From Actinomycetospora chibensis (GTDB lineage: Bacteria > Actinomycetota > Actinomycetes > Mycobacteriales > Pseudonocardiaceae): 64,000 nt of DNA. Position 1 is the stretch's first letter. Every line of letters begins with the position of its first letter. The position numbers were made by a program, and so were the translations under genes. The notes beneath the pieces are model-generated. The model saw nothing but the letters and a program-made list of their open reading frames with translations. It searched no databases and was not told the origin of the DNA. Positions 1,321 through 20,532 of the stretch are shown here, piece after piece. The stretch covers positions 16,447 through 80,446 of the forward strand of contig NZ_JAQZAM010000021.1 of assembly GCF_028737215.1 (NCBI RefSeq), in the 5' to 3' direction.

Positions 1321-2021
1321 CCGGTTCGGGCAAGACGCAGTTCGCGAACGGGCTGCTCACCCAGATCGCCGCCGCCTCCGACGTGCTGATCACCGGCTCG
1401 GACATCACCGGGCTGCTGCTCGGGCGCCCGTTCGAAGGCACGGTCCACCGCCCGCATCAGGTCGTGGGCACCGGCGACATCGGGGCCCACGCGGTGCTGC
1501 TGGAGGGCCTGGTCGCCGAGATGGACCGCCGGCTCGCGGCGATCCCGCCACGGGAGGACCGCATCGAGCCCACCCCGGCCACACCGACGGTGCTCGTCGT
1601 CCTGGAGGAGTTCCCCGGTCTGCTGCGCGCCGCCGACTCACTGCCCAAGCCCAAGCGCGGTGAGGGTGTCCCGGTCGGCGACCGCATCCGCACCGCGGTG
1701 CTCCGTCTCCTCTCCGAGGGCCGCAAGGCGGCGTTCCGGGTGCTGATGCTGGCCCAGCGTTTCGAGGCCACCGCTGTGGCTGGCGGCTACGCCCGCGACC
1801 AGTTCGCGCTGCGTCTGTCGTTCCGGGTGCCGGCGGATTCCCTTGAGATGCTCCACGGCACCGACGCCCGACCCCTGGGCCAGGAGCACGCCAACGCCGC
1901 TCCCGGCGTGGCCTACCTCTCGGGGCTCGGCCGCGACTGCGAACGCATCCGCGTCCCGTACCTCGGCGACTACGGCACCTACGTCGACCGCATCCAGGCC
2001 CACGGACGGCGGGCCGCGTGA
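1321..2021 (+). pseudogene. FtsK/SpoIIIE-type DNA translocase (TraB/TraSA), 3' part
   Basis: TraB/TraSA proteins are hexameric FtsK-like pumps that move double-stranded DNA between mycelial actinomycetes. This fragment opens inside the Walker A motif: TGSGKTQ reads in the frame of 1320-1322. It continues with the translocase core (LITGSDITG, TPTVLVVLEEFPGLL as a Walker B-like segment at about 1580-1625, VLMLAQRF) and ends with TGA at 2019-2021. It has no start of its own because its 5' part (12982-13546, minus) was separated by the inversion. Joined at 12982/1321 the gene is 422 codons including the stop, with an intact VQGQTGSGKT. As it stands, the gene should be non-functional. Confidence 0.85.
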
Positions 2022-2245
2022 TGAACCTCGTCGCCATCGTCATCATCGCCGGCCTGGTCACCGCGCTGCTGATCAAGAGCCGCCGTGCCGCGCCCGCGCT
2101 CGTCTCCGGCGTCGTGACCCTCGTGCTGCTGTTCGCCGCCTTCCCGACGCTCGGCCCGGCCGTCACGTCCTCGGCTGGCGAGTTCGCCCACCAGCTCGGC
2201 GCCGCCACCGACCGCGCCGCCGACGTCCCGGAGGACACCCGATGA
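2021..2245 (+). CDS. Small membrane protein of the AICE transfer module
   Basis: This 74-residue protein has two hydrophobic segments: VAIVIIAGLVTALLI near residues 3-18 and a second around 28-48. The ATG overlaps the TGA of the FtsK 3' part. The next gene starts inside its stop codon (ATGA at 2242-2245), so the genes form a tightly coupled transfer operon. Position and topology resemble the small spread (Spd) membrane proteins that help plasmid DNA cross septa in Streptomyces plasmids, but no specific Spd motif is seen, so this is inference from context. Confidence 0.6.
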   Translation: MNLVAIVIIAGLVTALLIKSRRAAPALVSGVVTLVLLFAAFPTLGPAVTSSAGEFAHQLGAATDRAADVPEDTR

Positions 2246-2601
2246 ACGATCAGCCCCTCAGCCTCGCCGGCTGCGTCGCCGAAGCCGCTGAGACCGTCCG
2301 CGAGGCCAACCACGCCGTCACGACAGCCCTCTTCGCGGCCACCGACGCCTACGACGTTGTCGGACACGTCAGCGTCCTGGTCCACCGTCACGGCCAGCTC
2401 CTCGACTTCCTGACCGATCAGCTCCGCCGGGCCGATCCCGCCGGCTACGTCGACGACCGCGGCCACGACCCGTCGACGGCGCTGCGTGACGCCCACGGCG
2501 CCCTCACCGATGCCCGCGGCCTGGTCGCCGATGTCGGCGCCTTCCTCGACCGCGCCCACAACCACCTCGGCCACCTCGGCCGGATTGCCCTGGAGGACTG
2601 A
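2242..2601 (+). CDS. Hypothetical AICE protein
   Basis: This is a 119-residue, largely helical, acidic protein with no membrane segment. It is rich in Ala, Asp, His and Leu and has heptad-like stretches (AEAAETVREANHAVTTALF; LLDFLTDQLRRADPAG). The ATG overlaps the previous stop, and it lies 3 bp before xis. The function is not recognised. Its place between the spread-like gene and xis suggests a conserved accessory gene of integrative elements. Confidence 0.6.
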   Translation: MNDQPLSLAGCVAEAAETVREANHAVTTALFAATDAYDVVGHVSVLVHRHGQLLDFLTDQLRRADPAGYVDDRGHDPSTALRDAHGALTDARGLVADVGAFLDRAHNHLGHLGRIALED

Positions 2602-2604
2602 CCT

Positions 2605-2853
2605 GTGAGCACTTACGACGTCGTCCGGCCCGTCGGCCAGCGCCCCACGCCCACCCCGCCGGCCGCCCGCCCGGAACGACGTTGGAGCGCCCAGGACGTT
2701 GCCGACTACCTCGGGATCGCGCTGAGCACCGTCTACCAGTGGCGCTGCTCGGGCTACGGGCCCCGCGGCCGCCGTGTCGGGCGTTACCTGCGCTACGACC
2801 CCGACGAGGTCCGGGCCTGGTTCGACGGCCTCGCCGACCCGCAGGCCGGCTGA
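2605..2853 (+). CDS. xis: Excisionase (Xis), helix-turn-helix protein
   Basis: This 82-residue protein has a MerR/HTH_17-type DNA-binding domain: WSAQDVADYLGIALSTVYQW at residues 28-47, then the wing GRRVGRYLRYDPDEVRAWFDGL. Small HTH proteins directly before a tyrosine integrase act as recombination directionality factors that bend attachment-site DNA and favour excision. The GTG start lies 3 bp after the previous stop, and int begins 6 bp after the xis stop. If the attL and attR sites are inverted relative to each other, Xis with Int would flip DNA rather than excise the element. Confidence 0.8.
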   Translation: MSTYDVVRPVGQRPTPTPPAARPERRWSAQDVADYLGIALSTVYQWRCSGYGPRGRRVGRYLRYDPDEVRAWFDGLADPQAG

Positions 2854-2859
2854 CCGGCG

Positions 2860-4026
2860 ATGCCTCGTCCACCCACCGCGGTCGGCACCTACGGAACGAT
2901 CAGGGTCAACGGCGAGCCCGGCCACTACGTCGCGCGGGCCTGGTTCCGCGACCTCGACGGCAAGGCCCGCCAGGTCGAGCGCAGCGGCCCGACCAAGGCC
3001 AAGGCCCGCGACGCGCTGAAGCTCGCCCTGCGCGACCGGGCCCGCACCGCCACCGGCATCGGCGGCGACACCCGCATCCGCGAGATCGCCCCGGAGTGGC
3101 TGGCCGGGATCGACGCCGCGGTGAACGCGGGGGAGCGGTCACCGAGTACCGCCGAGCAGTACCGCCGTCAGCTCGACGGGGTGGTCCTGCCCGGCGTGGG
3201 GGAGCTGCGGGTCCGGGAGGCGACGGTGCCGCTGCTCGACAGCTTCATCCAGACGGTGCAGGTCCACCGCGGCACCGCGTCGGCGAAGCTCGCCCGCTCG
3301 GTGCTCTCGGGCCTGCTCGGGGTCGCGGTGCGCCACGGTGCGATCCCGACCAACCCGGTCCGCGACCTCTCGCGCATCCACACCGGCCGGCGCAAGGCCA
3401 CCCGCTCACTGACCCCGCCCGAGTGCCGCGCGTGGCTGGCCCAGCTCGACGCCGACGAGGACGCTCGCGACAAGGACCTGCCCGACCTCTGCCGGTTCAT
3501 GATCGGCACCGGGGTGCGCATCGGGGAGGCGCTGGCCGTGGCGTGGCCGGAGGTCGACCTCGACGAGGCCACCGTGGACGTGTCCCGCACGCTGATCCGG
3601 CTCAGGGGCGTCGGCCTGATCCGGAAGTCGACCAAGACCGAGACCGGTGAGCGCATCCTGACCCTGCCGCGGTTCGTGGTCACGATGTTGCGTCGGCGCA
3701 ATCCCGACGGCGACGCCCTTGGGCCGGTGTTTCCCGACACCCTCGGCGGCTGGCGCGACCCGTCGAACACCCGCCGGGCGCTGCGCGATGCCCGCGGTAG
3801 CGAGGGCTTCGCGTGGGTCACCAGCCACGTGTTCCGCCGGACCTGCGCCACGATCCTCGACCAGTCCGGCCAGTCGTCGCGCTCGATCGCCGACCAGCTC
3901 GGGCACGCCCAGGTGTCGATGACCCAGAACCACTATTTCGGGCGGCGCATCGCCAACCCGGCTGCGGCCGCGGCGCTCGACGCGTGGCACGACCAGCACG
4001 ATCAGGAGGACGCAAATCGTGGGTAA
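2860..4026 (+). CDS. int: Tyrosine recombinase integrase of the AICE
   Basis: This 388-residue integrase starts at ATG 2860. It has an arm-binding N-terminus (GTYGTIRVNGEPGHYVARAWF), a SAM-like core-binding domain (about 65-165) and a C-terminal catalytic domain. Catalytic residues can be followed in order: Arg in GTGVRIGEALAV, Lys in KSTKTETGERIL, HxxR in SHVFRRTCATIL, His in QLGHAQVSM and the nucleophile Tyr in QNHYFGRRI. The gene ends 57 bp from the 38-bp repeat in the tRNA-Lys 3' end, the normal position for an integrase beside its attachment site. It catalyses site-specific integration and excision at tRNA-Lys(CTT). Confidence 0.93.
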   Translation: MPRPPTAVGTYGTIRVNGEPGHYVARAWFRDLDGKARQVERSGPTKAKARDALKLALRDRARTATGIGGDTRIREIAPEWLAGIDAAVNAGERSPSTAEQYRRQLDGVVLPGVGELRVREATVPLLDSFIQTVQVHRGTASAKLARSVLSGLLGVAVRHGAIPTNPVRDLSRIHTGRRKATRSLTPPECRAWLAQLDADEDARDKDLPDLCRFMIGTGVRIGEALAVAWPEVDLDEATVDVSRTLIRLRGVGLIRKSTKTETGERILTLPRFVVTMLRRRNPDGDALGPVFPDTLGGWRDPSNTRRALRDARGSEGFAWVTSHVFRRTCATILDQSGQSSRSIADQLGHAQVSMTQNHYFGRRIANPAAAAALDAWHDQHDQEDANRG

Positions 4027-4082
4027 ATCATGGACCCCGGCCCGGGCACGGAGGGTGGTCCGGCCTCTGAGCTGGAAAGACT

Positions 4083-4120
4083 GTGCGCCGTCAGGGACTC
4101 GAACCCCGAACCCAGTGATT
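4083..4120 (-). other. Attachment site attL (38-bp tRNA-Lys 3' end)
   Basis: The 38 bases covering the 3' part of tRNA-Lys (from the anticodon stem through the acceptor end plus one base) recur exactly at 20405-20442. Identity stops sharply on both sides. This is the classic att core of a tRNA-targeting integrative element next to its int gene. Here it reads on the minus strand while the other copy reads on the plus strand. A freshly integrated element would have direct repeats, which supports the inversion. Confidence 0.9.
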
Positions 4121-4156
4121 AAGAGTCACTTGCTCTGCCCATTGAGCTAACGGCGC
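4084..4156 (-). tRNA. tRNA-Lys (CTT anticodon)
   Basis: The reverse complement folds as a complete 73-nt tRNA. The acceptor stem GCGCCGT pairs with ACGGCGC, followed by discriminator A. The D-arm contains GCTCAATGGGCAGAGC. The anticodon stem AGTGA/TCACT encloses the loop CTCTTAA with anticodon CTT. The T-arm has GGTTCGAGTCC. CCA is not encoded. The 3' half is the integration target of the AICE; the element supplies an identical 3' end, so the tRNA stays functional after integration. Confidence 0.97.
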
Positions 4157-4218
4157 GTGATCGAAACCCTAGCAAAGCCAGCGTTCCGATCCGACAGCGG
4201 GTGGACCACTGCCGTCCG

Positions 4219-4292
4219 GGTGAGTGACGGGACTTGAACCCGCGACACCTGGGATCACAACCCAGTGCTCTGCCAACTGAGCTACACCCACC
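4219..4292 (-). tRNA. tRNA-His (GTG anticodon)
   Basis: The reverse complement folds as tRNA-His. The 7-bp acceptor stem GTGGGTG/CACTCAC has one G-T wobble, with the extra G at -1 facing C73, the identity element of histidine tRNAs. The anticodon stem CTGGG/CCCAG encloses TTGTGAT (anticodon GTG). The T-loop has GGTTCAAGTCC. It lies 62 bp upstream of tRNA-Lys in the same direction, so the two may be transcribed together. Confidence 0.97.
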
Positions 4293-4367
4293 ATTGGCCT
4301 CTCCGGGGAGGCCCCGGTGAGTCGTGTACGAGCCTACAAGCCGGGTGCGAGCGGCTTGCGACCGCCC

Positions 4368-5042
4368 TCAGGCCCCCGGCGGGGGCGCCTGGCCACCCGC
4401 CGGACCCGGCTCGGTGGCCTCGGCGGAAAGGACGCCGGAACGGTCGTCGGCCACCACTGAGGCGGCCGCAGCCTGGGCCTCGTCGGTGGTCGGCCCGGGC
4501 AGGGGTACGAAGGCCGTGCGGCGGTAGTACTCGAGCTCGCGGATCGACTCGCGGATGTCGGCGAGCGCGCGGTGGGCGAGCCCCTTCTCCGGCTGCGCGT
4601 AGTAGATGCGCGGGTACCAGCGCCGGCACAACTCCTTGATCGAGCTGACGTCGACCATCCGGTAGTGCAGGTAGCCGTCGAGCTCGGGCATGTCGCGGGC
4701 GAGGAAGCCGCGGTCGGTGGCGATCGAGTTGCCGCACAGGGGCGCCGAGCGGCCCTCGGGCACGTGCTCGCGGATGTAGTCGAGGACGAGCTTCTCGGCC
4801 TCGGCCATCGTCACCGTCGACTGCCGCACCTCGTCGGTCAGGCCCGACTTGGCGTGCATGTCGCGGACGACGTCCGGCATGGCCTCGAGGGCCTCGTCGG
4901 ACGCGTGGATGACGACGTCGACACCCTCACCGAACGGGACGAGGTCCGCGTCGGTCACCAGGGCCGCGATCTCGATGAGCGCGTCGTGGCCCAGGTCGAG
5001 TCCGGTCATCTCGCAGTCGATCCACACCAGCCGGGCACTCAC
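4368..5042 (-). CDS. orn: Oligoribonuclease
   Basis: This 224-residue DEDDh 3'-5' exoribonuclease degrades 2-5-nt RNAs, including pGpG-type dinucleotides, to mononucleotides in the cytoplasm. The acidic exonuclease motifs are clear: [10 protein letters not shown] near residue 10, [10 protein letters not shown] near 110 and [11 protein letters not shown] near 160, with the catalytic His in the last. The core ends around residue 185, followed by a 35-40-residue Pro/Ala/Gly-rich tail often seen in actinobacterial Orn. The gene lies immediately upstream of the tRNA pair on the same strand and 10 bp after the end of the PH-domain gene. Confidence 0.95.
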
Positions 5043-5052
5043 CCGGACGACC

Positions 5053-6537
5053 TTAACGGCGCACGAGCCGCCCGGCTCCCCGACCGTCGATCACGAAAGG
5101 TGCCAGCAGGCCGGGGGTGACGTCCTCGACCAGCTCGAGGGCGCGGTCGACGCCGACGTCGAGCACCTCGTAGCGACCGCGTCCGGCGGCGGTCACCGCA
5201 TGCAGGGTGACCAGCCCGGCGCGGCGCTGGGTCAGCGACTGGGTGAGCCGCCAGCCGATCACCCCGCCGCGGCGCAGGACGACGGTGCGCCGCACCCAGG
5301 CCCCGTGGCGGCTGACGAGGTGCGTGCCCGTGAGCGCGTGCCCCAGCGACCTGATCCGGTCGACGGCGAGCAGCACGGAGGCGCCGAGCAGGATCGGCAC
5401 GACAACGGGGTCGGCCGGGGCCTCGGGCCGGGCGAGCAGCACGGCGCACACGACCAGCACCGGGCCGACGCCGCGGGTCAGCCGACGGACGACGGCCGCG
5501 CGGGGGTGGCGGACGAGCGGGGCGCGCGTGCCCTCCTCCTCCCCGACGCCGAGCACGCCGGCGGCCACCTGGTGGGCCCTGCGCCGCGGCATCGCCGGGC
5601 CGACGGCGCCGACGTGCTCGCCCTGGCCGTCGGCCCGCAGGCCGGTGGTCAGGGCCAGCGGGCGCGCCCCACGGCCGAGGCGCACCAGCAGCGGTTCGTC
5701 GAGCTCGACGCCGCGCAGGCGCCGGCCCTCGAGGGACAGGGTCCGGCGGGTCAGCAGGCCGCGCCGCAGCACGAGCCCGCCGTCGTCGGCGCGCGTGAGC
5801 CGGTAGCCCCACCAGCCCTCGACGAACACGACGGCGGCCCCGAAGACCGCCGTGGCGAGCAGGGCCACCGCGCCGAGCCACACCGGCGCGCGCCCGGCGC
5901 CCTCGCGCAGGGTCTCGGTGACCGGCGCCCGCAGCGAGAACTCCTCGGCGAGGCGGAAGAGCCCGAGCCACACCACACCCACGACGGCGATCGCCGAGAA
6001 CGTCAGCGGGGCGAACCGCACCCAGGTCCAGCGCAGGCGGGCGAGCTCGGGCACCGGTGCGTCGGCGTCGACCGGGGCCTCGCCGAGCAGCAGGGCGCGG
6101 AGCCGCTCGGCCTCGACGCGGCGGACGGCGTCGAGGGTCAGCTCGGCGTCGTCGCCACCCTCACGCCGTCCCGTGCCCACGCGTACCACGGCGAGCCCGA
6201 ACAGGCGGTGCGCCGGGTTGGCCGTGAGGTCGGCGGTGCGGATGCGGTCGCGGTGCACGCTGCGGTGGTGGCGGCGCAGCAGGCCCGTGCGCAGCTCCAC
6301 GCGGTCGGTGCCGATCCGGTAGGACGTCGTGAACCAGCGCGAGATCCCGAACGCGAGCACCGCGACGGCGAGCGCGATGCCCCCGCCGAGACGCCATCGA
6401 TCGTCGCTGGTGCCGCCGGTGATCGCGATGACGAGCAGGACCGGGACGAGCTTGATCAGGTCGACGGCGGGGTGGACCACGAGCATCCGGCGGTCGAGGC
6501 GCTGCCAGCCGAGGCCGTCGGACGGGGAGGAGGTCAC
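5053..6537 (-). CDS. PH domain-containing membrane protein (YdbT-like, large subunit)
   Basis: This 494-residue protein has bacterial PH (bPH2/YdbT) domains between paired hydrophobic segments. Membrane pairs are visible near residues 22-60, 195-225 and 240-270, and again near 370-410. PH-like blocks have the typical pattern, for example [34 protein letters not shown] sequence around 75-100. The GTG start (6535-6537) overlaps the TGA of the upstream PH gene, so the two form an operon. YdbS/YdbT-type proteins are membrane-associated and of uncertain function; in Bacillus the pair has been linked to bacteriocin resistance. Confidence 0.85.
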
Positions 6538-7040
6538 GTCGCGTCGCCCCCGAGGGTCTCGGTGACCCTCGTCAGCCGGTCGGCGAGGTCGACCGCGGCG
6601 TCGGCGTCGAGCCCGTCGATCGTCAGTGCGCCGCTGGCGGAGGCCGTCGTGACCGTCACCGAGGACAGACCGAAGGCGCGCTGCAGCGGCCCGCGGTCGG
6701 TGTCGACGGTCTGGACCCGCGAGATCGGGGCGATGCGCCACTCGAGGCGCAGCCAGCCCGAGAGGGTGTGGACGGCGTCGTCGGTGATCTCCCAGCGGTG
6801 CAGGGCGTAGCGCCAGCGGGGGACGACGAGCATGTGTGCGACGCCGACGACGGCCGTCGCCACCCCCGTGACGATCATCAGCGAGGTGTAGGTCGGGAGG
6901 ACGACGGCGACGGCGACCTGGGGGACGAGCAGGCCGACGGTCGTGATCGCCGACCGCAGCGCCCACCACGACCGGGCGCGGGGGCTCACGCGGTGCGCGG
7001 GCGCGCGCAACCGCGAGGCGCCCGGCTCCGGCGTGGTCAC
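6534..7040 (-). CDS. PH domain-containing membrane protein (YdbS-like, small subunit)
   Basis: This 168-residue protein has two adjacent hydrophobic segments (about residues 30-75) followed by one bPH2 domain (RWEITDDAVHTLSGWLRLEW, then ISRVQTVDTDRGPLQRAFGL, and SASGALTIDGLD at the end). This is the standard layout of YdbS, which pairs with the larger YdbT-like partner encoded next with a 4-base overlap. A start at 7040 fits the size of the family. The 123-bp gap to the acyl-CoA synthetase gene holds no visible gene. Confidence 0.85.
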   Translation of the reverse strand: MTTPEPGASRLRAPAHRVSPRARSWWALRSAITTVGLLVPQVAVAVVLPTYTSLMIVTGVATAVVGVAHMLVVPRWRYALHRWEITDDAVHTLSGWLRLEWRIAPISRVQTVDTDRGPLQRAFGLSSVTVTTASASGALTIDGLDADAAVDLADRLTRVTETLGGDAT

Positions 7041-7163
7041 CGGGCCAGTCTGCCCAATCCCGGCATCCGTCTGCTCGCTCGCGAGCCGCCCCGGCCAGTG
7101 ATCGAAGTACCGTGACGGACACTGAACGTCTGCGACGGCACTTCGCTGACACTCACGAGGCCC

Positions 7164-8789
7164 TCACGAGTCCGAGGACCCGAGCTCCGACTTGAGCACC
7201 TTGCCGGTGTTGTTGCGCGGGAGCTCGTCGAGGAACTCGACGTCGCGGGGGGTCGCGAAGCGGGCGAGGTTGTTCTTGACGTGGTCACGCACGGCGTCCG
7301 CGTCGACCTTCGCCCCGGACTCGAGCACGAGGTAGGCCGCCAGGCGCTGGCCGTACTCGTCGTCGTCGACGCCGACGACCGCGGCCTCCTTGACGCCCTC
7401 CATGTCGGACAGCAGGCCCTCGACCTCCCCGGCGTGGATGTTCTCGCCCCCGGAGACGATCATGTCGTCGGCGCGGCCGGAGATGAACAGCAGGCCGTGG
7501 CGGTCGTAGTGCCCGAGGTCGCCGGTGCCGAGCATGTCGTCGACGACCTCGGTCTCGCCGCGCCCGCCGGTGTAGCCGGTGAACAGCATGTCGTTGCCGA
7601 CGAAGATGCGGCCGGTCTCGCCGGCGGGGAGCTCCTGGTCGTCGTCACCCAGGATCTTCACCGTGGTGCCGACGGGCGGGCGGCCGGCGGTACCGGGCTC
7701 GGAGCGCAGCTCCTCGGGGCGGGCGATCGACGCCCACGACACCTCGGTGGAGCCGTAGAGCATGTAGAGCTTGTCGCCGAAGGTCTCGAGGAACTCGGTG
7801 ACCTTCGCCGGCGGCATCGCCGAGCCGGTGGCGGTGACGGTCTTGAGCGCCGACACGTCGTAGCGGGCCTTGACCTCGTCGTCGAGCTCGAGGATGCGCT
7901 GGAGCATCACCGGCACCGCGAACATCGACGTGCAGCGGTGCTGGGCGAGCTGGGCCAGCGCGTCCTCGGGGTCGAACTTGCGCCGCAGCACCAGCGTCGA
8001 GCCCATCAGCGACCCGATCTGGAACGCCGCGAACCCCCATGTGTGGAACAGCGGCGCCGAGACCAGGGCGTGCTCGCGGGCCGTGAGCGGGATGCGGGAG
8101 AGGATCGCGTTGACGACGCCGATGCCGTTCGGCGACGGCCGCTCGGCGCCCTTGGGCGTGCCCGTGGTGCCCGAGGTCAGCACGATCGTCTTGCCGACCG
8201 GCGGCTTGGTGGCCAGCGGCTTGGAGCCGTCGGCGCCGATGAGGCCCTCGAGGGTGTCGTCGCCCCAGCACCCGGCGGCCTCGGTCCAGGCGAAGACGCG
8301 CTTCACGGTGTCGGGCACCTCGTCGAGGCGGTCGGTGAGGTCGGAGTCGACGACGATCGTGCCGATCTCCTGCTCCTCGGCGACGGCCTTCATCTGCGAC
8401 GGCGAGAGCCCGGTGTTGAGCAGGACGACGTCGGCGCCGAGCTTGGAGACGGCGAGGATCGTCTCGATGGGGCCGCGGTGGTTGCGGCACAGCACGGCGA
8501 CGCGGCTGCCGGGGCCGACGCGGCGGTCCGCGAGGGCGCGGGCGAGCCGGTCGGTGCGCTCGTGGATCTCCTTGAACGTCACCGTCCCGCGGTCGTCGAC
8601 GATCGCGACGCGGTCGGGGTGGCGCCAGCGGCCGACGACGAACGCCGTGGTGGGCGTGAAGCCGTAGCGGTACAGCGCGGTCGGGAACAACGCGGCCCGG
8701 TGCGGTGCCACCGGGGCGATGACGCCCGCGTCCGTCAGCAGCCGCAGCCCGGTCGCGAGCTCGGAGGGGGTGCCGAACGGGGTCTTCAC
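7164..8789 (-). CDS. Acyl-CoA synthetase (AMP-forming, FadD-like)
   Basis: This 541-residue member of the ANL superfamily activates a carboxylic acid with ATP to an acyl-adenylate and transfers it to CoA. It has the P-loop IVLTSGTTGTPKGAE near residue 200, the A5 motif MLYGSTEVSWAS, the hinge motif GDLGHYDRHGLLFISGRADD and the C-terminal catalytic lysine in NNTGKVLKSEL. The ATG overlaps the stop of the reductase gene (ATGA), so activation and reduction of the same acyl chain is likely. This fits synthesis or modification of wax- or mycolate-like lipids. The chain length cannot be read from the sequence. Confidence 0.92.
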   Translation of the reverse strand: MKTPFGTPSELATGLRLLTDAGVIAPVAPHRAALFPTALYRYGFTPTTAFVVGRWRHPDRVAIVDDRGTVTFKEIHERTDRLARALADRRVGPGSRVAVLCRNHRGPIETILAVSKLGADVVLLNTGLSPSQMKAVAEEQEIGTIVVDSDLTDRLDEVPDTVKRVFAWTEAAGCWGDDTLEGLIGADGSKPLATKPPVGKTIVLTSGTTGTPKGAERPSPNGIGVVNAILSRIPLTAREHALVSAPLFHTWGFAAFQIGSLMGSTLVLRRKFDPEDALAQLAQHRCTSMFAVPVMLQRILELDDEVKARYDVSALKTVTATGSAMPPAKVTEFLETFGDKLYMLYGSTEVSWASIARPEELRSEPGTAGRPPVGTTVKILGDDDQELPAGETGRIFVGNDMLFTGYTGGRGETEVVDDMLGTGDLGHYDRHGLLFISGRADDMIVSGGENIHAGEVEGLLSDMEGVKEAAVVGVDDDEYGQRLAAYLVLESGAKVDADAVRDHVKNNLARFATPRDVEFLDELPRNNTGKVLKSELGSSDS

Positions 8790-10807
8790 CAGTGCACTCC
8801 AGGGAGAAGTCGGGCCATGGCCTGGGCGCCGCGCGAGAGCGGGCCCGTGTCGAGCGTCCGGTCGTCGTCACGCCGTTCCTGCTCACTACCCTCACGGGCC
8901 GCGGCGGATTCGGGGAACACCCGATATGCGACGTGCATGACGGCGTCCTTCAACCGTGGTGTCAGTGCTCCGGACACCGCGCCGAGCGTCCCCAGCAGCG
9001 TGCCGACGTGCTTGGGACGGTCGATGAGCGCGTGCAGCACCTTGTCCGCCGCCTCCTCGGGGGAGTCGGTGGGGAAGGCGTCGTAGATGCGGGTCGGGGC
9101 GATCATCGGCGTGCGCACCAGCGGCATGTGCACGGTCGTGAACGTGACGCCCTCGCCGAGCACCTCGGTGGCGACGATGTCGGCCCAGGCGTCCATCGCG
9201 GCCTTGCTCGCGACGTACGCGGAGAACCGCGGCGGGCCCGTCTGCACCCCGATCGACGAGATGTCGACGACGTGCCCGAACCGCCGCTCGAGCATGTGCG
9301 GCAGCAGCGCGAGCGTCAGCCGGACGGCGCCGAAGTAGTTGATCGCCATCGTGCGCTCGAAGTCGTGGAAGCGGTCGACCTCGAGGCGCACGCCGCGGCG
9401 GATCGAGCGGCCGGCGTTGTTGACCAGCATGTCGATGCCCGTGTCGGGCCCGCTGTGATCGTTGATCATCGCCTTGACCAGGGCGTCGACCGACTCGCCG
9501 TCGGTGATGTCGCACGAGTACACCCAGGCCTGACCGCCGTCGCGCTCGATCTCGGTGCGGACCTCCTCGAGCTCCTCGGTACGGCGCGCCACGAGCAGCG
9601 GCACGCCGCCGGCGCGCGCGACCTTGAACGCGGTCTCGCGCCCGATGCCCGAGGAGGCGCCGGTGATGACCACGCGCCGGCCCTGCAGCGGCCCGCCGGG
9701 GCGGGGCCTGCGGTGGCGGTTGGGGTCGAGGTGCTCGCGCCACCAGTCGACGAGCACCCGGGCGTACTCGCCGATCTCCGGGCTCGCGATGCCGGTGCCC
9801 GCGAGGGCGCGGCGGGTCTCGTCGCTGCTGAAGGTGGCGCCGAACGTCAGGTGGGGGAGCACCTCGGGCGGGATGTCGAGCTCGGCGAGGGCGATGTCGC
9901 GGGCGGCGGCGAGCGCGGGGACCCGCGCGGCCTGCTCGGCCCCGCGCTTCACGAGGGAGCCCACGGCCGTCGGCATCGTGGCCTGCAGCTTCGGGGCGCC
10001 GAGCGCGTCGGCGAGGGCGTTGTAGACCTCGGAGAGCGGCTGCGGACGCGGGTGGACGAGGTGGAACGCGCGGTGGTCCATGCCCGGCTCGTGGACGAGG
10101 TGGACCATCGCGTCGGCGACGAAGTCGACCGGGACGACGTTGGTGGCGCCGAGCTCGGGCACGGCGAAGCGCAGGGCGCTCGGTAGCCGACCCAACAGCG
10201 AGATCGCGGTGAGCAGGTAGTACGGCCCGTCGATCTTGTCCATATCGCCGGTCTGCGAGTCGCCCACGACCACCGCGGGTCGGTAGACGCGCCACGGCAC
10301 CGTCGACTCCTCGCGGACGATGCGCTCGGCCCGGTACTTCGTCTCGTGGTACGGGTTGCCGAACTCCTGGCCGACGTCGAGGTCGTCCTCGGTGAAGGTG
10401 CCCTCGTACTCGCCGGCGACGGCCACCGAGGACACGTGGTGCAGGCAGGAGACGCCGAGGCGCGAGGCCAGCTCGACCACCCCGCGCGTGCCGTCGACGT
10501 TGGCCGCGCGGTTGGTGTCGTCGTCGGCGGTGATGTCGTAGATCGCGCCGAGGTGCAGGACGTGGTCGACCCGCCCGGACAGGCCGTCGATCTCGGCGTC
10601 GTGCAGGCCGAGCCGCGGCCGCGTCAGGTCGCCGACGACCGGGACGACCTTCTCGTGCCCCTCCACGTGGGTGAGCCGGCGCAGCAGCCGGTCACGTGAG
10701 CCCTCACGGACGAGCGCGTACACCGCATCGCAGTCGTCGCGCTGGAGCAGACGGGTGAGGACCGCTCGGCCCAGGAACCCGGTACCGCCGGTCACCAGAT
10801 ACCGCAT
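8786..10807 (-). CDS. Two-domain fatty acyl-CoA reductase / SDR protein
   Basis: This 673-residue fusion has an N-terminal extended-SDR thioester-reductase-like domain (MRYLVTGGTGFLGRAV at residue 1, active-site YHETK near 158) and a C-terminal classical SDR domain (VVITGASSGIGRETAF near residue 380, NNAG near 465, YVASK near 530). This is the domain plan of actinobacterial acyl-CoA reductases of the Acr type, which reduce fatty acyl-CoA to aldehyde or alcohol with NADPH. The ATG at 10805-10807 was preferred because the Rossmann motif begins at residue 1. The stop overlaps the start of the acyl-CoA synthetase gene. Confidence 0.88.
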   Translation of the reverse strand: MRYLVTGGTGFLGRAVLTRLLQRDDCDAVYALVREGSRDRLLRRLTHVEGHEKVVPVVGDLTRPRLGLHDAEIDGLSGRVDHVLHLGAIYDITADDDTNRAANVDGTRGVVELASRLGVSCLHHVSSVAVAGEYEGTFTEDDLDVGQEFGNPYHETKYRAERIVREESTVPWRVYRPAVVVGDSQTGDMDKIDGPYYLLTAISLLGRLPSALRFAVPELGATNVVPVDFVADAMVHLVHEPGMDHRAFHLVHPRPQPLSEVYNALADALGAPKLQATMPTAVGSLVKRGAEQAARVPALAAARDIALAELDIPPEVLPHLTFGATFSSDETRRALAGTGIASPEIGEYARVLVDWWREHLDPNRHRRPRPGGPLQGRRVVITGASSGIGRETAFKVARAGGVPLLVARRTEELEEVRTEIERDGGQAWVYSCDITDGESVDALVKAMINDHSGPDTGIDMLVNNAGRSIRRGVRLEVDRFHDFERTMAINYFGAVRLTLALLPHMLERRFGHVVDISSIGVQTGPPRFSAYVASKAAMDAWADIVATEVLGEGVTFTTVHMPLVRTPMIAPTRIYDAFPTDSPEEAADKVLHALIDRPKHVGTLLGTLGAVSGALTPRLKDAVMHVAYRVFPESAAAREGSEQERRDDDRTLDTGPLSRGAQAMARLLPGVHW

Positions 10808-10876
10808 GGCGGAGGATCGTGGCACAGCCCACGACGCTCCGCACGTGCCGGTTACCGACGGGTCACACCGGCGGCG

Positions 10877-11065
10877 TCACCGCTCGGGGTCGGTCATCTC
10901 GTCGACGTGCTCCTCGACGTCGTCGCCCGATGCGGCGACCGCGTCGGTGGTCTTCTGCTCGCGGGGCTTCGCGGGGTCGAGACCCTCGACCAGCGCCTCC
11001 TCGTCGTTCTGCTCGGCGACGTAGCGCTGCTCGATGTTCGCGGCCTCGTTGCGCTGCTCGCTCAT
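10877..11065 (-). CDS. Small acidic hypothetical protein
   Basis: This 62-residue, highly charged, Glu/Asp/Gln-rich protein has no hydrophobic segment. It starts at ATG 11065 (MSEQRNEAANIEQRYVAEQN) and is probably disordered. It is divergent from the ligase gene, with about 30 bp between starts, so the promoters would overlap. It is not a family I recognise beyond being a typical short actinobacterial conserved hypothetical. Confidence 0.6.
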   Translation of the reverse strand: MSEQRNEAANIEQRYVAEQNDEEALVEGLDPAKPREQKTTDAVAASGDDVEEHVDEMTDPER

Positions 11066-11094
11066 GGCGCGACCGTAGGCGGTAGGAAGGCGGG

Positions 11095-12093
11095 GTGCCG
11101 GACGACGTGTGGGATCTCCTGCCCGAGCAGCAGCGTGCGCTACGTCGGGCCGACGACGCGGGGTTCCGGGCACCGATGCTCGCGACGCTGTCGAAGGACC
11201 ATCCGCCGGGCGCGGGCTGGGTGTTCGAGCGCAAGCTCGACGGTGTCCGGATGATCGCGACGCGGGAGCGCGGGCAGTCGACGCGGCTGTGGTCGCGCAA
11301 CCAGAAGCCGATGGACGCGAGCTATCCCGAGATCGTCGAGGCCCTCGACGAGCACGGGCCGGCGCGCTTCGTGCTCGACGGGGAGATCACGGCGGCCGAC
11401 GGGACGTTCTCGAGCCTGCAGGCGCGCATGCACCTCCAGGACCCGAACCGGGCGCGGCGCACCGGGGTGGAGGTGCAGGCGCACCTGTTCGACCTGCTGG
11501 TGCTCGACGACGTCGACGTCACGCGGCTCCCGCAGTCGACGCGGCACCGGATCCTGGACGCGATCGTCGACGCGGCGGCGCCGCTGTTCCGCTCGCCCGC
11601 CCTCGAGGGCGACCCGTCCGCCCTGCTCGCCGAGGCGTGCGCCGGGGGCTGGGAGGGACTGATCGCCAAGCGCAGCGAGGCGCCGTACGTGGTCGGGGGG
11701 CGCAGCCGCGACTGGCTCAAGCTCAAGTGCGTCCGCGACCAGGAGTTCGTCATCGGCGGCTGGACCGATCCCTCGGGATCGCGGCGCGGGCTGGGGGCGC
11801 TGCTGGTGGGCTACCACGCTTCCGGGGTGGACGGGTTGCGCTACGCGGGCAAGGTCGGCACCGGCTATGACGCCGCGACGCTGACGATGCTGCGCGACCG
11901 CCTCGACCCGCTGGCGACCGACGAGTGCCCCTTCGTCGACGCCCCGCGGGAGAAGGGGCAGCACTGGGTACGGCCGGAGATGGTCTGCGCGGTCGGGTTC
12001 GGCGAGTGGACCACCGACGGTCGGCTGCGCCACCCGCGCTACCAGGGCCTGCGCCTCGACAAGGACCCGGCGGAGGTCGTGCGGGAGCAGTGA
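11095..12093 (+). CDS. ATP-dependent DNA ligase (LigD ligase-domain type)
   Basis: This 332-residue protein has a covalent nucleotidyltransferase fold. The adenylated lysine lies in ERKLDGVR (about residue 48, KxDG motif). Other motifs include FVLDGEI (III), the EGLIAKR region (IV) and DWLKLKC (V). An OB-fold follows (EFVIGGW … LRYAGKVGTG … ). It matches the stand-alone version of the LigD ligase module used in actinobacterial end-joining, without polymerase or nuclease domains. GTG start at 11095. The stop TGA overlaps the next gene's GTG. Confidence 0.93.
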   Translation: MPDDVWDLLPEQQRALRRADDAGFRAPMLATLSKDHPPGAGWVFERKLDGVRMIATRERGQSTRLWSRNQKPMDASYPEIVEALDEHGPARFVLDGEITAADGTFSSLQARMHLQDPNRARRTGVEVQAHLFDLLVLDDVDVTRLPQSTRHRILDAIVDAAAPLFRSPALEGDPSALLAEACAGGWEGLIAKRSEAPYVVGGRSRDWLKLKCVRDQEFVIGGWTDPSGSRRGLGALLVGYHASGVDGLRYAGKVGTGYDAATLTMLRDRLDPLATDECPFVDAPREKGQHWVRPEMVCAVGFGEWTTDGRLRHPRYQGLRLDKDPAEVVREQ

Positions 12094-12716
12094 ACGACTT
12101 CCTTGCACGGTGGTCGGCGGCGCACGGGGGGATCGAGCCGCGTGGGCTGGTCCTCGCGTGGCTGCGGGTCGTGTTCGTCGTCGTGCGGCCGCTGGCGCGC
12201 CGGCGCGTGCCGCCGTGGGTGCTGACGGGGGCGTCGGCGCTGTGCGGGGTGGCGGTGCCCCTCGCGGTCCTCACCGGCCGGTGGGGCCTGCTGGCCGGGG
12301 CGGTGCTGGCGGTGGTGTGCGCGCTGCTCGACGGACTGGACGGCGCCGTGGCCGTGCTCACCGACACCGCGACGGCGTGGGGGCGCGTGCTCGACCCGCT
12401 GGTCGACCGGATCGGGGACGTCGCGTTCCTCGTGGCGCTGGTGCTGGCGGGTGGGCCGGGGTGGCTCGCGGCCGGGGTGGGGGTGCTGACGCTGCTCCAG
12501 GAGTCGGTGCGGGCCTCGGCGCGGCTGCCCGACGTCGGCGTCGTGAGCGTGTGGGAGCGCCCGTCGCGCGTGATCGTCACGGCGCTCGGGCTGGTGGGGG
12601 CGTTCGTCAGCCCGGCCCTGCCGGTGGCGACGATCGCGCTGGCGATCGCGGCCGTCCTCGCCGTCGTCGGCTTCGCCCAGGTGGTCGTGACGGTCCGCCG
12701 CCGCCTACGTGCGTGA
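12090..12716 (+). CDS. CDP-alcohol phosphatidyltransferase family membrane protein
   Basis: This 208-residue membrane protein has about five or six hydrophobic segments and the signature D-x2-DG-x2-A-x9-G-x3-D-x3-D (LLDGLDGAVAV … WGRVLDPLVDR). Enzymes of this family transfer a phosphoalcohol from CDP-diacylglycerol or a CDP-alcohol to an acceptor in phospholipid synthesis. In the usual motif the residue after A is Arg; here it is Val, so activity or substrate may differ. GTG start overlapping the ligase TGA. The 3' end overlaps the convergent crtI tail by 12 bases. Confidence 0.82.
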   Translation: MNDFLARWSAAHGGIEPRGLVLAWLRVVFVVVRPLARRRVPPWVLTGASALCGVAVPLAVLTGRWGLLAGAVLAVVCALLDGLDGAVAVLTDTATAWGRVLDPLVDRIGDVAFLVALVLAGGPGWLAAGVGVLTLLQESVRASARLPDVGVVSVWERPSRVIVTALGLVGAFVSPALPVATIALAIAAVLAVVGFAQVVVTVRRRLRA

Positions 12717-12981
12717 TCCTCTGAGCTGTGGCTCAGAAGACCACGCACGTGAGGTGATCAGCCCGGCGGTGATCTCGGCGGACAGGGTGACGAGGGGGAG
12801 GCCGCCGCCGGGGTGGGCGGAGCCGCCGACGAGGTAGAGCCCGTCGACGGGTGAGCGGTTGGCCGGGCGCAGGAACGCCGCGAGGGCGCCGTCGGACGAG
12901 GTGCCGTAGATCGAGCCGCCGGGCGAGAGGGTCTCGCGCTCGAGGTCGGCGGGCGTGCGCACCGCGCAGTGGCGGATGCGT
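12705..12981 (-). pseudogene. crtI: Phytoene desaturase, 3' part (separated by inversion)
   Basis: The minus-strand frame from 12981 reads RIRHCAVRTPADLERE, GGSIYGTSSDGALAAFLRPA and GLYLVGGSAHPGGGLPLV. This is the conserved C-terminal FAD-binding end of CrtI, ending at TAG 12705-12707. It lacks a start and is fused in the DNA to the 5' part of the FtsK gene just upstream. Joined after base 1320 it continues the crtI frame exactly (…GVDVRQRIRHCAV…). Confidence 0.88.
12720..12737. terminator. Hairpin between convergent genes
   Basis: TCTGAGC-TGTG-GCTCAGA forms a perfect 7-bp stem with a 4-base loop. It lies a few bases after the stop of the phosphatidyltransferase gene and inside the last codons of crtI on the other strand. 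The position suits a bidirectional terminator, but there is no T-run, so intrinsic termination is uncertain. Confidence 0.4.
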
Positions 12982-13546
12982 TCTGGCCCTGCACCCCGAG
13001 GTGCCCGGCCTCGGACAGGGCGTGCCCGAGGGTCAGCCCGTTCTCGGTCCGGCCGATGATCACCGGGTCGTGGACCGAGGCGAGGGTGAGCGAGGGCAGC
13101 CCGTAGCCGTCGCGCAGGGGGTCGTGGTCGAGCAGGTGCAGACGCACCCACCGCCCGGCGATCGGCTCGACGCGCAGCCCGTGGGCGCCCAGGGTGTGGG
13201 CCAGTCGCGGCCCGCGGTCCTTGGCGGTGAAGTCGCCTGGCTCCTGGCCGGCCATCAGCTCCACGGTCAGCGAGGTCGGCGGCCCGAGGCGGACCTCCCC
13301 GACCCGCGGGGTGCGCACCGTGATCCCGGAGGCCACCGACACGTACTGGCACAGCCCGATCCCGGCGCAGGCCTCGCGGAACACCCCGCGCAGGGAGTTG
13401 GCGAACATGACCACCGAGGCCTCGTACTCGCGGCGGGCCCGCTTCTCACGCAGCCGGGCGAAAAGACCCGGCCGGTGAGCGCCGGGACCATGGCTGCGCC
13501 CGGACCGGTGCTCGAGGTGGCGGGTGTGCTCGACGGCGGGCATCAC
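12982..13546 (-). pseudogene. FtsK/SpoIIIE-type DNA translocase (TraB/TraSA), 5' part
   Basis: The fragment begins at ATG 13546 and runs 188 codons to the breakpoint. It contains the region before the ATPase core (YVSVASGITVRTPRVGEVRL, VELMAGQEPGDF) and HDPVIIGRTENGLTLGHAL, then EAGHLGVQGQ at the point where Walker A should follow. The Walker A and the rest of the ATPase lie at 1321-2021. The ATG overlaps the end of the whiB-like gene by 4 bases, so the intact gene would have followed WhiB in one operon. Confidence 0.85.
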
Positions 13547-13911
13547 GCGGCCCCCCGCTCAGTGCAGGCCGGGCACAGCGACCCGTCGACCGCGGGCATC
13601 GGGAACAGCAGCGAGCACGCCGGGCACATCGGCTCGGCGTCCGCGACCGGGTCCGGCACGCCGTGGGCGCGCAGGTAGCGCATCACCCGGCGCTCACCGG
13701 GCGTAGTGGCCGCCCAGATGCCGTGGTCCTGCCCGGAGTCCAGCGCCCACGCCAGGCACTCGCGCTGCACCGGGCAGAACCGGCACACCTGCCGGGCGGC
13801 GGCCACCTGGACCTGCACACCCTCGGTGTCGGCGAGGCCCTGGCCGTCGTCGGGCGGGAAGAACAGCTCCGGGTCGGTGTCGCGGCACGCGCCGCGGGTC
13901 TGCCAGCGCAT
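13543..13911 (-). CDS. WhiB-family iron-sulfur regulator with C-terminal zinc-ribbon-like tail
   Basis: This 122-residue protein has the WhiB cluster-binding cysteines (GACRDTDPELFFP; CRFCPVQREC, spaced C…CxxCx5C) and the following GIWAATTPGERR turn. WhiB proteins hold a 4Fe-4S cluster and bind the sigma factor to steer transcription. Beyond residue 95 it carries an extra CPAC-x15-CPAC arrangement, looking like a small zinc ribbon not present in ordinary WhiB proteins. ATG at 13911 overlaps the upstream stop. It lies just before the transfer gene and may control it. Confidence 0.88.
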   Translation of the reverse strand: MRWQTRGACRDTDPELFFPPDDGQGLADTEGVQVQVAAARQVCRFCPVQRECLAWALDSGQDHGIWAATTPGERRVMRYLRAHGVPDPVADAEPMCPACSLLFPMPAVDGSLCPACTERGAA

Positions 13912-14315
13912 CACGCCGCCTCGCCCTCGGCCGAGCGGCGGGCCGGACGCGGAGCCGAGCCGGCCGCGGGAGCGATGCCGTCGGCGGTGAACGACACGTC
14001 CACGCCCTTGCCGCCGTTGCGGGCCTGCCGGACCTTCGCCCGCAGGCCCGGCAGCTCCACCGCCGAGTACGGCGCCAGCGCCGGGACCTCGTGGGAGGCA
14101 ACCCGGATGCCGTGGAGCTCGTGGCGACCGTCCCGACCGGTCGGCAGCATCACGTCGTAGATGCGGACCGGCGCGTTGGTCTCCTCGTCGATCAGCGGCT
14201 GACCGGACGAGCGTCGGCCGTTCGGACCGTCCTCCCAGCGCTCCATCGTCTGCGCGTGACCTGTAGCTATGGCCGCCATCTGCCCGGTGTCGATCGGGGC
14301 ATTGAATTCGAACAT
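13911..14315 (-). CDS. Hypothetical AICE protein
   Basis: This is a 134-residue soluble protein starting at MFEFNAPIDTG; an earlier start at 14357 is possible. It has a central basic stretch and a low-complexity Ala/Pro/Arg C-terminus. The sequence MERWEDGPNGRRSSGQPLID then a beta-rich segment (VRIYDVMLP, VDVSFTADGI) suggests a small beta domain. Function not recognised. It is the first gene of the whiB-ftsK operon, and the 211 bp before it face the divergent HTH gene, so it may be co-regulated with transfer. Confidence 0.6.
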   Translation of the reverse strand: MFEFNAPIDTGQMAAIATGHAQTMERWEDGPNGRRSSGQPLIDEETNAPVRIYDVMLPTGRDGRHELHGIRVASHEVPALAPYSAVELPGLRAKVRQARNGGKGVDVSFTADGIAPAAGSAPRPARRSAEGEAA

Positions 14316-14526
14316 GTCTCTCGCGTCCCTTCTGCTCGTCACCGCCAATTGCGGCACGGAAACAGCTTGGGATGCGGGCCCTTAATCCGTCATCTACGCT
14401 TCCCTGCACGCCCGCCACTCGATTCGACGGGAGCCACTTGCGCGCACGCAAATGCCCTTGCCCTACACAGTTGACTTGTCTAGAGTGGTCGACAGTTGCT
14501 CGCCGTCGAATTCCGAGGTCACGGCT
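14316..14526. promoter_or_regulatory. Divergent intergenic control region
   Basis: About 210 bp separate the outward-facing transfer operon (minus) and the HTH/methyltransferase pair (plus). It is clearly less GC-rich than its surroundings. TTGACTTGTCTAGAGT at about 14471-14486 combines a -35-like TTGACT with a TNGTCTAGA-type half palindrome of the kind bound by actinobacterial GntR/HTH regulators. Promoter and operator assignments are tentative. Confidence 0.35.
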
Positions 14527-17714: not shown

Positions 17715-19064
17715 TCAGCCGACTGGGTCTCGTGGCCTGGCGGGGTGCTCGTCTGGGGTGTAGTGCCATCGCAGGTCCCGGATCGTGAGCCAGGCCCGTG
17801 CGGCATCGAGGCCGCCGTTCTCGGCCACGGCCAGCAACTCCGGCCCGAGCTGGGCGCGTTCGACGTAGTCCCATGCGTCCACGCTGAGTCCGAGCCGGAC
17901 GTCGGCGTCCAGGTCGTCGGCCGCGATGTCCTCGTCTGTGGCCTCGGCTCCGAGACCGGCGAGCTTGCGGAGGTCCCGCCGACCGGTGGACCAGGTGAGC
18001 TGACGGCGGCCCTCGCTGGCCTGCTCCCACTCCCACCAACGGGCCACGGCTGACTCCTCGTAGGTGTCGACGGCGTCGGCGAGGAGCTGCATCGAAGTGC
18101 GGCCCCCGCGGCGACGGCCCTCTTTGCGGTGCGAGCCGGTGACCTCGTGGGCGATCTTGGTGAAGTAGTCGGCCAAGTCCCCGTCACCGAGCTGCACCCG
18201 GCGCAGGTCGCATCCGTGTTCCTCGCTGGCGTGGAAGCCCTTGCGCTTCAACGCGGCGCGCCACCGAAAGAACATGCGGGCACCGACCGAGCCGGCGACC
18301 AGCTCGGCGGAGACCTGCTGGCCGAAGCAGAGCAGGGCGTGGATGTGGACGTGCCAGCCGTTCTCGCCGTCGGTGACCTCCACGACGCGTGCCCACCCGA
18401 GCAGCCCGCCGAACAGTTCTTGATCGGCCTGCCATGCCCCGCCGGAGGTGACGCGGGCCCACGCGTCGGATAGCACGTCCCAGCAGCCGCGGGCCTGCCG
18501 AAGCGTGTGTTCCTCGATGGCGTCGGCCTCGGCCTCGCGCTCGTCGAACTCCCACAAGTTCGAGTTCGCCGCCTCGTAGCGCGACCGGTTCTCCTCGAGG
18601 CGCCGCAACCGGGCGCGCTCGTCCTTGGTCAACCCGAGCCGGTCACCGCGACCGTGGCGCATCGTCAGAGTCAGCAGGAACGCCGACCCGCCGGCCTCCT
18701 CAACCGCACGCATCACCGTCGACAGCTCGTCCGCTCGCCGTGTGGCGATCTTGGCCGCGCATTGCGGGCACGCCCACACCGACCCGCACGACGCCAGACC
18801 TGAGTAGCCCGCCGAGCGGGAGCCATCCACCCCGGTCGTGAGCGCGAGCGTGACCCCGGCGTCGGGGTCGAGTGGCGCACCGCAGTTCCGAACCCGGCGC
18901 AAGCTGGTGATCAGACGTAGCTGCGACCGGCGCGCCCAGCGGGTCTCGCGTCGGTGCTGGGCCTTGGCCACCCGCTCATCCGGGGTCAGTCGCTCGTTGG
19001 CTCCCCGGCGCTGCCTGGTCCGGTGAAGACCTGTTCGCCCATTACCGAGAGCCGGCCCGCTCAC
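17715..19064 (-). CDS. repSA: RepSA-type rolling-circle replication initiator
   Basis: This 449-residue initiator of pSAM2-like elements nicks and replicates the excised circle before transfer. Visible features are a zinc-binding stretch with CGSVWACPQCAAKI near residue 95, the metal-binding HUH motif in GWHVHIHALL near residue 240 and the likely nucleophilic tyrosine in DYFTKIAHEV near 310. The N-terminus is basic. The gene overlaps the upstream gene by 4 bases. With int, xis and an FtsK-type pump it defines an actinomycete integrative and conjugative element (AICE). Confidence 0.9.
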   Translation of the reverse strand: MSGPALGNGRTGLHRTRQRRGANERLTPDERVAKAQHRRETRWARRSQLRLITSLRRVRNCGAPLDPDAGVTLALTTGVDGSRSAGYSGLASCGSVWACPQCAAKIATRRADELSTVMRAVEEAGGSAFLLTLTMRHGRGDRLGLTKDERARLRRLEENRSRYEAANSNLWEFDEREAEADAIEEHTLRQARGCWDVLSDAWARVTSGGAWQADQELFGGLLGWARVVEVTDGENGWHVHIHALLCFGQQVSAELVAGSVGARMFFRWRAALKRKGFHASEEHGCDLRRVQLGDGDLADYFTKIAHEVTGSHRKEGRRRGGRTSMQLLADAVDTYEESAVARWWEWEQASEGRRQLTWSTGRRDLRKLAGLGAEATDEDIAADDLDADVRLGLSVDAWDYVERAQLGPELLAVAENGGLDAARAWLTIRDLRWHYTPDEHPARPRDPVG

Positions 19065-20404: not shown

Positions 20405-20442
20405 AATCACTGGGTTCGGGGTTCGAGTCCCTGACGGCGCAC
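20405..20442 (+). other. Attachment site attR (second 38-bp copy)
   Basis: This is an exact copy of the tRNA-Lys 3' end found at 4083-4120, without the 5' half of the tRNA, as expected for the distal end of an element that integrated into that gene. Its orientation is opposite to the copy beside int, which is only expected if one end has been inverted. Confidence 0.9.
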
Positions 20443-20532
20443 CCATCGTTGCAGGTGTCGGGCCTGCGGTGCTTTCCTCCGGTAGATCGACGGTCCGTTT
20501 ACGGGCCGGAAACTCCTCCGGAGGCGCTCCAC

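Follow-up and report, generated by a model that had tools for sequence, protein, structure and literature searches.

The analyzed window is a 64,000-bp stretch of the Actinomycetospora chibensis genome (positions 16447-80446 of contig C13 in a 6.18-Mb draft of 55 contigs). In this window a segment of approximately 11.65 kb is inverted relative to related genomes, and the inversion exchanges the halves of two genes, a second, CrtD-like member of the crtI family of carotenoid desaturases and the ftsK-like transfer gene of a neighbouring actinomycete integrative and conjugative element (AICE). Depending on the placement of two bases common to both joins, the segment extends from 1324-12976 to 1322-12978 (11,653-11,657 bp), as determined by blastn against the relatives and by alignment of the junctions. 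The observed order is probably that of a real DNA rearrangement and not an assembly error, and its probable origin is a recent two-break inversion via end joining of the Ku/LigD type.

Gene order in the window and in related genomes

The locus was aligned at the nucleotide level (blastn) in eight of the 17 genomes of the same genus. In the nearest relative, G001 (locus L021, approximately 94.5% identical), positions 1-1323 of the window correspond to 7409-8732, and directly abutting this match, L021 8731-17412 corresponds to positions 4368-12980 of the window in the reversed orientation. The same uncut order with the whole crtI-family gene is retained in all seven aligned relatives where this gene lies beside a DNA ligase gene; locus L028 of G004 is excluded from this count, as the gene is not beside the ligase there and the copies are far apart. 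In G011 and G014, a near-full-length copy of the gene is positioned at most 0.8 kb from the ligase gene. In total, the segment is reversed with respect to nine relatives, seven by alignment and two by gene position.

The second crtI-family gene is present in 16 of the 17 other genomes, each copy spanning no less than positions 1-489 of a model with 504 positions; in G005 it was not found by this profile comparison across the 17 relatives. For 14 of the 16 copies no internal stop is reported, the single stop in G015 is terminal (the frame is open), and one stop is reported in G014. Since the relatives keep the segment in the other direction with the gene whole, the gene order in the window is, as judged from these sequences, derived and private to this genome among the genomes compared.

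An earlier, sequence-only reading of the window had proposed an inversion of about 11.66 kb with gap-free junctions, and had suggested a comparison of the crtI locus with related strains. The inversion in the assembly is borne out by this comparison, the seven aligned relatives having the pre-inversion order and the whole gene, and there are no N bases at either junction. Moreover, the pre-inversion joins, searched at up to three mismatches, occur on none of the 55 contigs, and in a 100-kb control region compared with G001 no inversion was observed among matches longer than 400 bp.

Exact positions of the breakpoints

The left break falls at 1323|1324 and the right one at 12977|12976, with the dinucleotide CG common to both joins. 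In the junction alignments, CG occupies positions 1322-1323 at the left junction (5' part of the crtI-family gene to 3' part of the ftsK-like gene) and positions 12977-12978 at the right one (5' part of the ftsK-like gene to 3' part of the crtI-family gene, on the minus strand). The reconstructed ancestral sequences are ..CACCG|CATCC for the crtI-family gene and ..CAGAACG|GTTCG for the ftsK-like gene, and both observed joins can be derived from them with zero bases lost, added or changed.

On the crtI side, ACCG is present at the site in all seven aligned relatives, and the codon at the break is His (CAC), in place of the Gln codon read from the window. On the ftsK side, Asn precedes the GSGK-type motif in 28 of 28 distinct P-loop contexts fitting the search pattern (an example from the paralogue in contig C5 is CAGAACGG), hence the ancestral P-loop is ..QGQNGSGKT and not QGQTGSGKT, as had been proposed. 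Given this Asn in the homologues, the break falls at CG and no base need have changed, whereas the sequence-only reading had put it at 1320/1321 with one ambiguous A, 2-3 bp away from the position given by the relatives. The crtI relatives taken alone suggest a microhomology of 4 bp (ACCG) and one base substitution, but this variant was dropped, as Asn (AAC/AAT) is found in all 27 contiguous FtsK-like homologues (see below), so that only CG is common and no substitution is needed.

The shared CG is by itself unremarkable, since an overlap of 2 bp or more also arises in 21% of cases when inverted breakpoint pairs are drawn at random from the window (20,000 draws). That two genes are rebuilt reciprocally and to the exact base, on the other hand, is not a matter of chance. 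In register, the flanks of the two sites agree upstream at 3/10 and 7/20 bases (CG included), and downstream at 1/10 and 5/20 bases.

The ftsK-like gene and its paralogues

The ftsK-like gene is present as a 5' part that ends in the P-loop (12977-13546, minus strand) and a 3' part delimited by homologue matches (1324-2021, plus strand); in 27 distinct homologues the two are collinear. When the two halves were searched separately (12982-13546 of the minus strand and the sequence from 1323), their matches in these 27 homologues shared a strand and were separated by 3-6 nt, the gap being the codon or codons at the break. The two fragments are indeed halves of one gene, as the sequence-only reading had claimed. 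The homologue set was built from 31 of 39 matches (30 loci and C51, which is L046; eight were left out), and the final count is obtained from 33 loci, L045-L047 included, less two duplicates, the window itself, and L075, L083 and L084, where there is no contiguous pair. Three of the 27 contiguous homologues belong to this genome (contigs C5, C51 and C20), and the DNA matches agree for these three.

The label "FtsK-like" is a sequence-based one, derived from the P-loop and the homologues. The PF01580 profile has nine matches in the genome, none of them in C13, and the region 1383-2021 has no Pfam match. As for the paralogues, the PF01580 score is 24.3 for C51 and 22.6 for C20 (cut-off 24), and the C5 paralogue is not among the matches listed.

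The paralogous elements share a common gene neighbourhood. In all three, a WhiB match is located upstream of ftsK, and a gene of 75 amino acids (aa) follows directly after it. A 115-aa gene is next in two of them (C51, C20), and a 148-aa gene is present in two (C5, C20), in C5 between whiB and ftsK. The order in C20 is that reconstructed in full for the original element, that is, 115-aa gene, 75-aa gene, ftsK, whiB, 148-aa gene, rep. In the window, the C20-like gene run is split between 1324-2601 and 12977-14357.

The second crtI-family gene

The 5' part of the crtI-family gene extends over 72-1323 of the plus strand (junction and protein alignments, profile search), and the 3' part over 12705-12976 of the minus strand (open reading frame, blastn, alignment to the relatives). 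The 5' part had been read as one frame; the protein matches, however, follow frame 3 for 72-974 and frame 2 from 977, which corresponds to a -1 frameshift near 975. No frameshift or alignment gap at this position is seen in any of the seven aligned relatives. Six of them are open in the alignment, and the seventh, G003 (L027), is open by the genus-wide comparison, the longest frame picked for it in the alignment having been the wrong one. A scan for frame changes against G001 in the 100-kb control region gave none in 36 genes (17,372 codons), while protein matching of this kind does reveal the change in the crtI-family gene. Compared with G001, the crtI-family gene has a dN/dS ratio of 0.21, and seven of its neighbours have ratios of 0.09-0.26. 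The ratio being similar to that of the neighbours, the loss looks recent, and the sequence comparison suggests this for both lesions.

The identification as crtI proved correct at the level of the family, but the gene is a second, CrtD-like copy, and the main crtI, in contig C2, has an open frame over its full length. The intact homologue from G001 passes the family model TIGR02734 with 319.4 bits (cut-off 238.1) and aligns to nearly the whole CrtD model NF045637 with 348.9 bits, its highest score, where the cut-off of 580 is not reached; it misses both CrtD-type equivalog cut-offs (348.9 and 226.6 bits against 580 and 500). From these scores, the gene would be a second member of the crtI family that is CrtD-like only. 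A GT2 glycosyltransferase gene, which matches the HpnB and CruG models below the cut-off, lies upstream, and both this gene and the BrkB neighbour are gapless relative to G001.

Complete loss of carotenoids was considered and ruled out, as the main crtI is open and the two TGA codons reported inside it are stops at the gene end. Since the main crtI is intact, the loss of the second gene is predicted to alter a late carotenoid step and not to abolish the pigment. The strain would thus lack the late carotenoid step of a CrtD-like enzyme, with the main crtI unaffected.

A 2.35-kb difference upstream of BrkB was also considered as a second lesion at the locus. It was ruled out, as the respective block is also missing in G003, G006, G007 and G015. 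This block, comprising DUF1206 and MFS genes (L021 2223-4574), is present in G001, G016 and G012, and is not found in this genome.

The AICE at tRNA-Lys

The element cut by the inversion is bounded by identical 38-bp att copies, with its integrase at the 3' end of a tRNA gene. The integration site is tRNA-Lys (ctt; 4083-4156, minus strand), and the att copy at the integrase end lies within it (4083-4120, minus strand); the copy at the far end is located at 20405-20442 on the plus strand, inverted relative to the first. No further copies of the 38-bp sequence were found in the window, and hence none at the breakpoints. Five relatives (G003, G006, G007, G012, G015) run from tRNA-Lys straight into the sequence behind the far att copy.

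On the plus strand, the 3' part of the ftsK-like gene is followed by the 75-aa gene (2018-2245), which comes directly after ftsK in the three paralogous elements, the 115-aa gene (2254-2601), next in line in the C51 and C20 elements, an excisionase-like helix-turn-helix gene (2605-2853; phrog_66, excisionase and transcriptional regulator, E 6.6e-11, a family-level match only), and the tyrosine integrase gene (2860-4026; PF00589, 59.2 bits). On the minus strand, beyond the other breakpoint, there are the WhiB-family regulator of the element (13543-13911; PF02467), the 148-aa gene matched in the C5 and C20 elements (13911-14357), and a Rep-like replication gene (17715-19064). The latter scores 31.0 bits with PF01446 (cut-off 33.2), is 62% identical to a gene of the C20 element, and also matches phrog_11698 (function not assigned). 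When the right half of the element was used in a plasmid search, 13 records were obtained, with the best coverage of 3% (WhiB and Rep matches).

In the reconstructed original order, the att copies would be direct repeats around approximately 10.3 kb (2,797 + 7,466 bp). In the window they are inverted and face each other at a distance of 16.4 kb, an arrangement that was not part of the sequence-only reading. A tyrosine integrase acting on inverted att sites inverts the intervening DNA, with no excision. Integrase and excisionase (Int/Xis) action would therefore flip 16.4 kb, and the element would not be excised; moreover, with ftsK split, the element is predicted to be unable to transfer. Judging from its genes and sites, the element is thus predicted to be doubly stranded, having lost both transfer and excision.

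Seven genes within the inverted segment are all open. Apart from the element genes, the segment carries tRNA-His (4218-4291, minus strand), the oligoribonuclease gene orn (4368-5042, minus strand; NF003765, 278.6 bits), and a gene with a DNA ligase domain of the non-homologous end joining (NHEJ) type (11095-12093, plus strand; TIGR02779, 253.9 bits, cut-off 227.75). The ligase gene is two genes away from the right breakpoint. It is conceivable, though quite unlikely, that the inversion has made the element a chromosomal switch, with Int/Xis expression flipping the 16.4 kb and a population possibly mixed in orientation. Such a switch segment would carry tRNA-Lys, tRNA-His, orn and the NHEJ-type ligase gene.

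A second tyrosine integrase gene (20449-21759) follows the far att copy. Its counterpart adjoins tRNA-Lys in G003, G006, G007, G012 and G015 (81-88% nucleotide identity), and G004 has a weaker match of 288 bp; by these matches it appears to be kept at one place across species. In G001, a different insert of approximately 11 kb is found in the same tRNA-Lys (L021 18141 to L030 9241), and a copy of the tRNA end delimits it, so the site seems to have been used more than once.

Origin of the inversion

In the favoured account, the crtI-family gene and the ftsK-like gene of the neighbouring AICE each suffered a double-strand break, and the two breaks would have been rejoined crosswise by end joining of the Ku/LigD type, giving the 11.65-kb inversion; as an outcome, both genes are cut and the att copies face each other, and the element would be stranded. 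Such crosswise rejoining is the simplest explanation. The joins have few bases in common (the 2-bp CG), and the flanks are little alike in register. The genome also encodes Ku (PF02735, 174.3 bits, C51:338890) and ligases identified by domain-level matches, one of several such matches being located at C51:338158, approximately 170 bp from the Ku gene, and another being the NHEJ-type ligase gene at 11095-12093 of the window. According to passages of a study on Streptomyces, NHEJ takes part in large rearrangements there, and single-base additions or fill-in accompany 40% of end-joining scars (PMC5869714). We infer that the DNA of the cell has the order seen in the assembly, that end joining made it, and that the event is recent.

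Several observations weigh against this account. End joining often trims or adds bases, and neither happened here. The 2-bp overlap, being so frequent in random pairs, does not identify the pathway. The order is known from one draft assembly of one strain, Ku is known here from its gene and a putative LigD-type ligase from ligase-domain matches, and the -1 frameshift could be a base-calling error.

It is possible, if doubtful, that the crtI-family gene had already been dead by frameshift, so that the inversion was tolerated and loss of the carotenoid step was the selected event. Consistent with this, the gene carries a frameshift of a kind seen in none of the 36 control genes, and its neighbours are intact; on the other hand, its dN/dS is like theirs, which makes both lesions look recent, with no order readable between them. 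This possibility is compatible with end joining and not opposed to it.

An assembly artefact, with the 11.65-kb piece inserted backwards between the flanking sequences, is unlikely. In its favour, the genome is a draft, and the order is private to it among those compared. However, both junctions are exact, reciprocal and free of Ns, and the CG is far shorter than an assembler's overlap, considering how assemblers work. Among the scored candidates for matches to the two junction regions (40 of 817 and 40 of 698 first-look candidates) there is no long repeat at the junctions. Moreover, the alternative joins are on no contig, the control region is free of inversion, and the same gene has a second lesion. 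For a contig to have been joined in backwards, its two ends would have to coincide with precisely these positions, with an overlap of 2 bp and without a gap, which we consider unlikely. Of the two possibilities left by the sequence-only reading, near-blunt joining and chimeric assembly, the former is therefore favoured by the reciprocal, base-conserving CG joins, the missing pre-inversion joins, the second lesion and the Ku gene.

Even less probable is an inversion driven by an enzyme, namely a serine recombinase, a topoisomerase exchange, or the AICE integrase acting at secondary sites. Serine recombinases perform base-conserving exchange with a 2-bp overlap, which the base-exact joins observed here fit, a single match to the resolvase family is found in the genome (PF00239, 80.8 bits, C55), and a mobile element with its integrase lies at one end. 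Yet the flanks of the two sites agree at only 3/10 bases upstream and 1/10 downstream, and there is no symmetry about CG (arm bases pair at 4/12 and 3/12, the control mean being 3.6), for which reason a serine recombinase was set aside despite the resolvase-family gene. The integrase at secondary sites, considered because of a T-loop-like likeness near the left breakpoint (noted by eye only), was set aside as well, since the att copies found in the window lie away from the breakpoints. Moreover, the crtI-family gene is uncut in 16 of the 17 same-genus genomes.

Repeats around the breakpoints were considered with regard to homologous recombination between inverted copies (an insertion sequence, a dispersed palindrome, or a paralogous AICE). 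Among the scored candidates, the junction regions match the ftsK paralogues, a palindrome that is dispersed over the genome, and a number of short stretches (28-98 bp), of which the one at 12911-12965 (78%) stops 12 bp from the right breakpoint. The palindrome, similar to repetitive extragenic palindromes, is located at 12691-12763, between a CDP-alcohol phosphatidyltransferase gene and the 3' end of the crtI-family gene, approximately 215 bp from the right breakpoint, and has many genome matches on both strands. The 500 bp on each side of the left breakpoint show a weak, out-of-register likeness to it (score 31, reached by 6 of 297 control stretches).

Within 300 bp of the breakpoints, a gapped local alignment of 1288-1443 with 13166-13005 has a score of 51, reached by 0/200 and 0/979 controls; with shorter flanks, the observed score is reached by 31/200 controls (100 bp) and 84/200 (30 bp). 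In this alignment the register is shifted by approximately 155 bp, and the aligned stretch stops short of the right breakpoint, so it cannot yield the observed joins. An imperfect inverted repeat, 1357-1394 / 12753-12790 (74% over 38 nt), lies 34 bp inside the left breakpoint and 187 bp inside the right one, and among the 25 longest of 556 inverted repeats none sets both breakpoints in register. Homologous recombination is thus hardly credible, as crossover in these repeats would give other joins, and it is contradicted by the junction sequences.

Significance and comparison with known systems

The inversion is a clean example of an already known type of event. In our judgement, made without a survey, homology-free inversions where both pre-break sequences can be derived to the base are seldom available; here, the relatives and the paralogues within the genome place the break exactly, which makes the event legible as a scar of repair. 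The inversion further illustrates how an integrative element could be immobilised by the chromosome in one step, its transfer gene being cut and its att sites turned against each other. Users of the assembly should note that the crtI label stands for a second copy that is split and frameshifted, that the ftsK fragments are the halves of one gene, and that the local gene order is unsuited to synteny analysis without a read check. In a literature search directed at Actinomycetospora (part of the results, as titles and abstract openings, some of them not naming the genus), the inversion was not described.

As in the NHEJ following I-SceI breaks in S. ambofaciens, described in passages of PMC5869714, the account favoured here involves template-free joining, Ku and ATP-dependent ligases, with microhomologies at some of the scars there. 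The breaks in that system were induced, and the word "inversion" is absent from the main text of that paper, whereas here two presumably natural breaks gave a base-exact inversion.

In the case of crtI-family desaturases, the likeness to CrtD is that the G001 homologue passes the family model and spans the CrtD model; the differences are that it remains below the CrtD equivalog cut-off and that the gene in the window is cut and frameshifted.

The AICE layout described in passages of PMC3218068 is att-tra-rep-int-att, with insertion at the 3' ends of tRNA genes, tRNA-Lys of Frankia among them. The element in the window resembles these AICEs in having a tyrosine integrase by a tRNA 3' end, an excisionase-like gene, candidate Rep-like and FtsK-like genes and, in its reconstructed original order, direct att copies. 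Unlike them, it has a split transfer gene and inverted att copies, and is predicted to be immobile.

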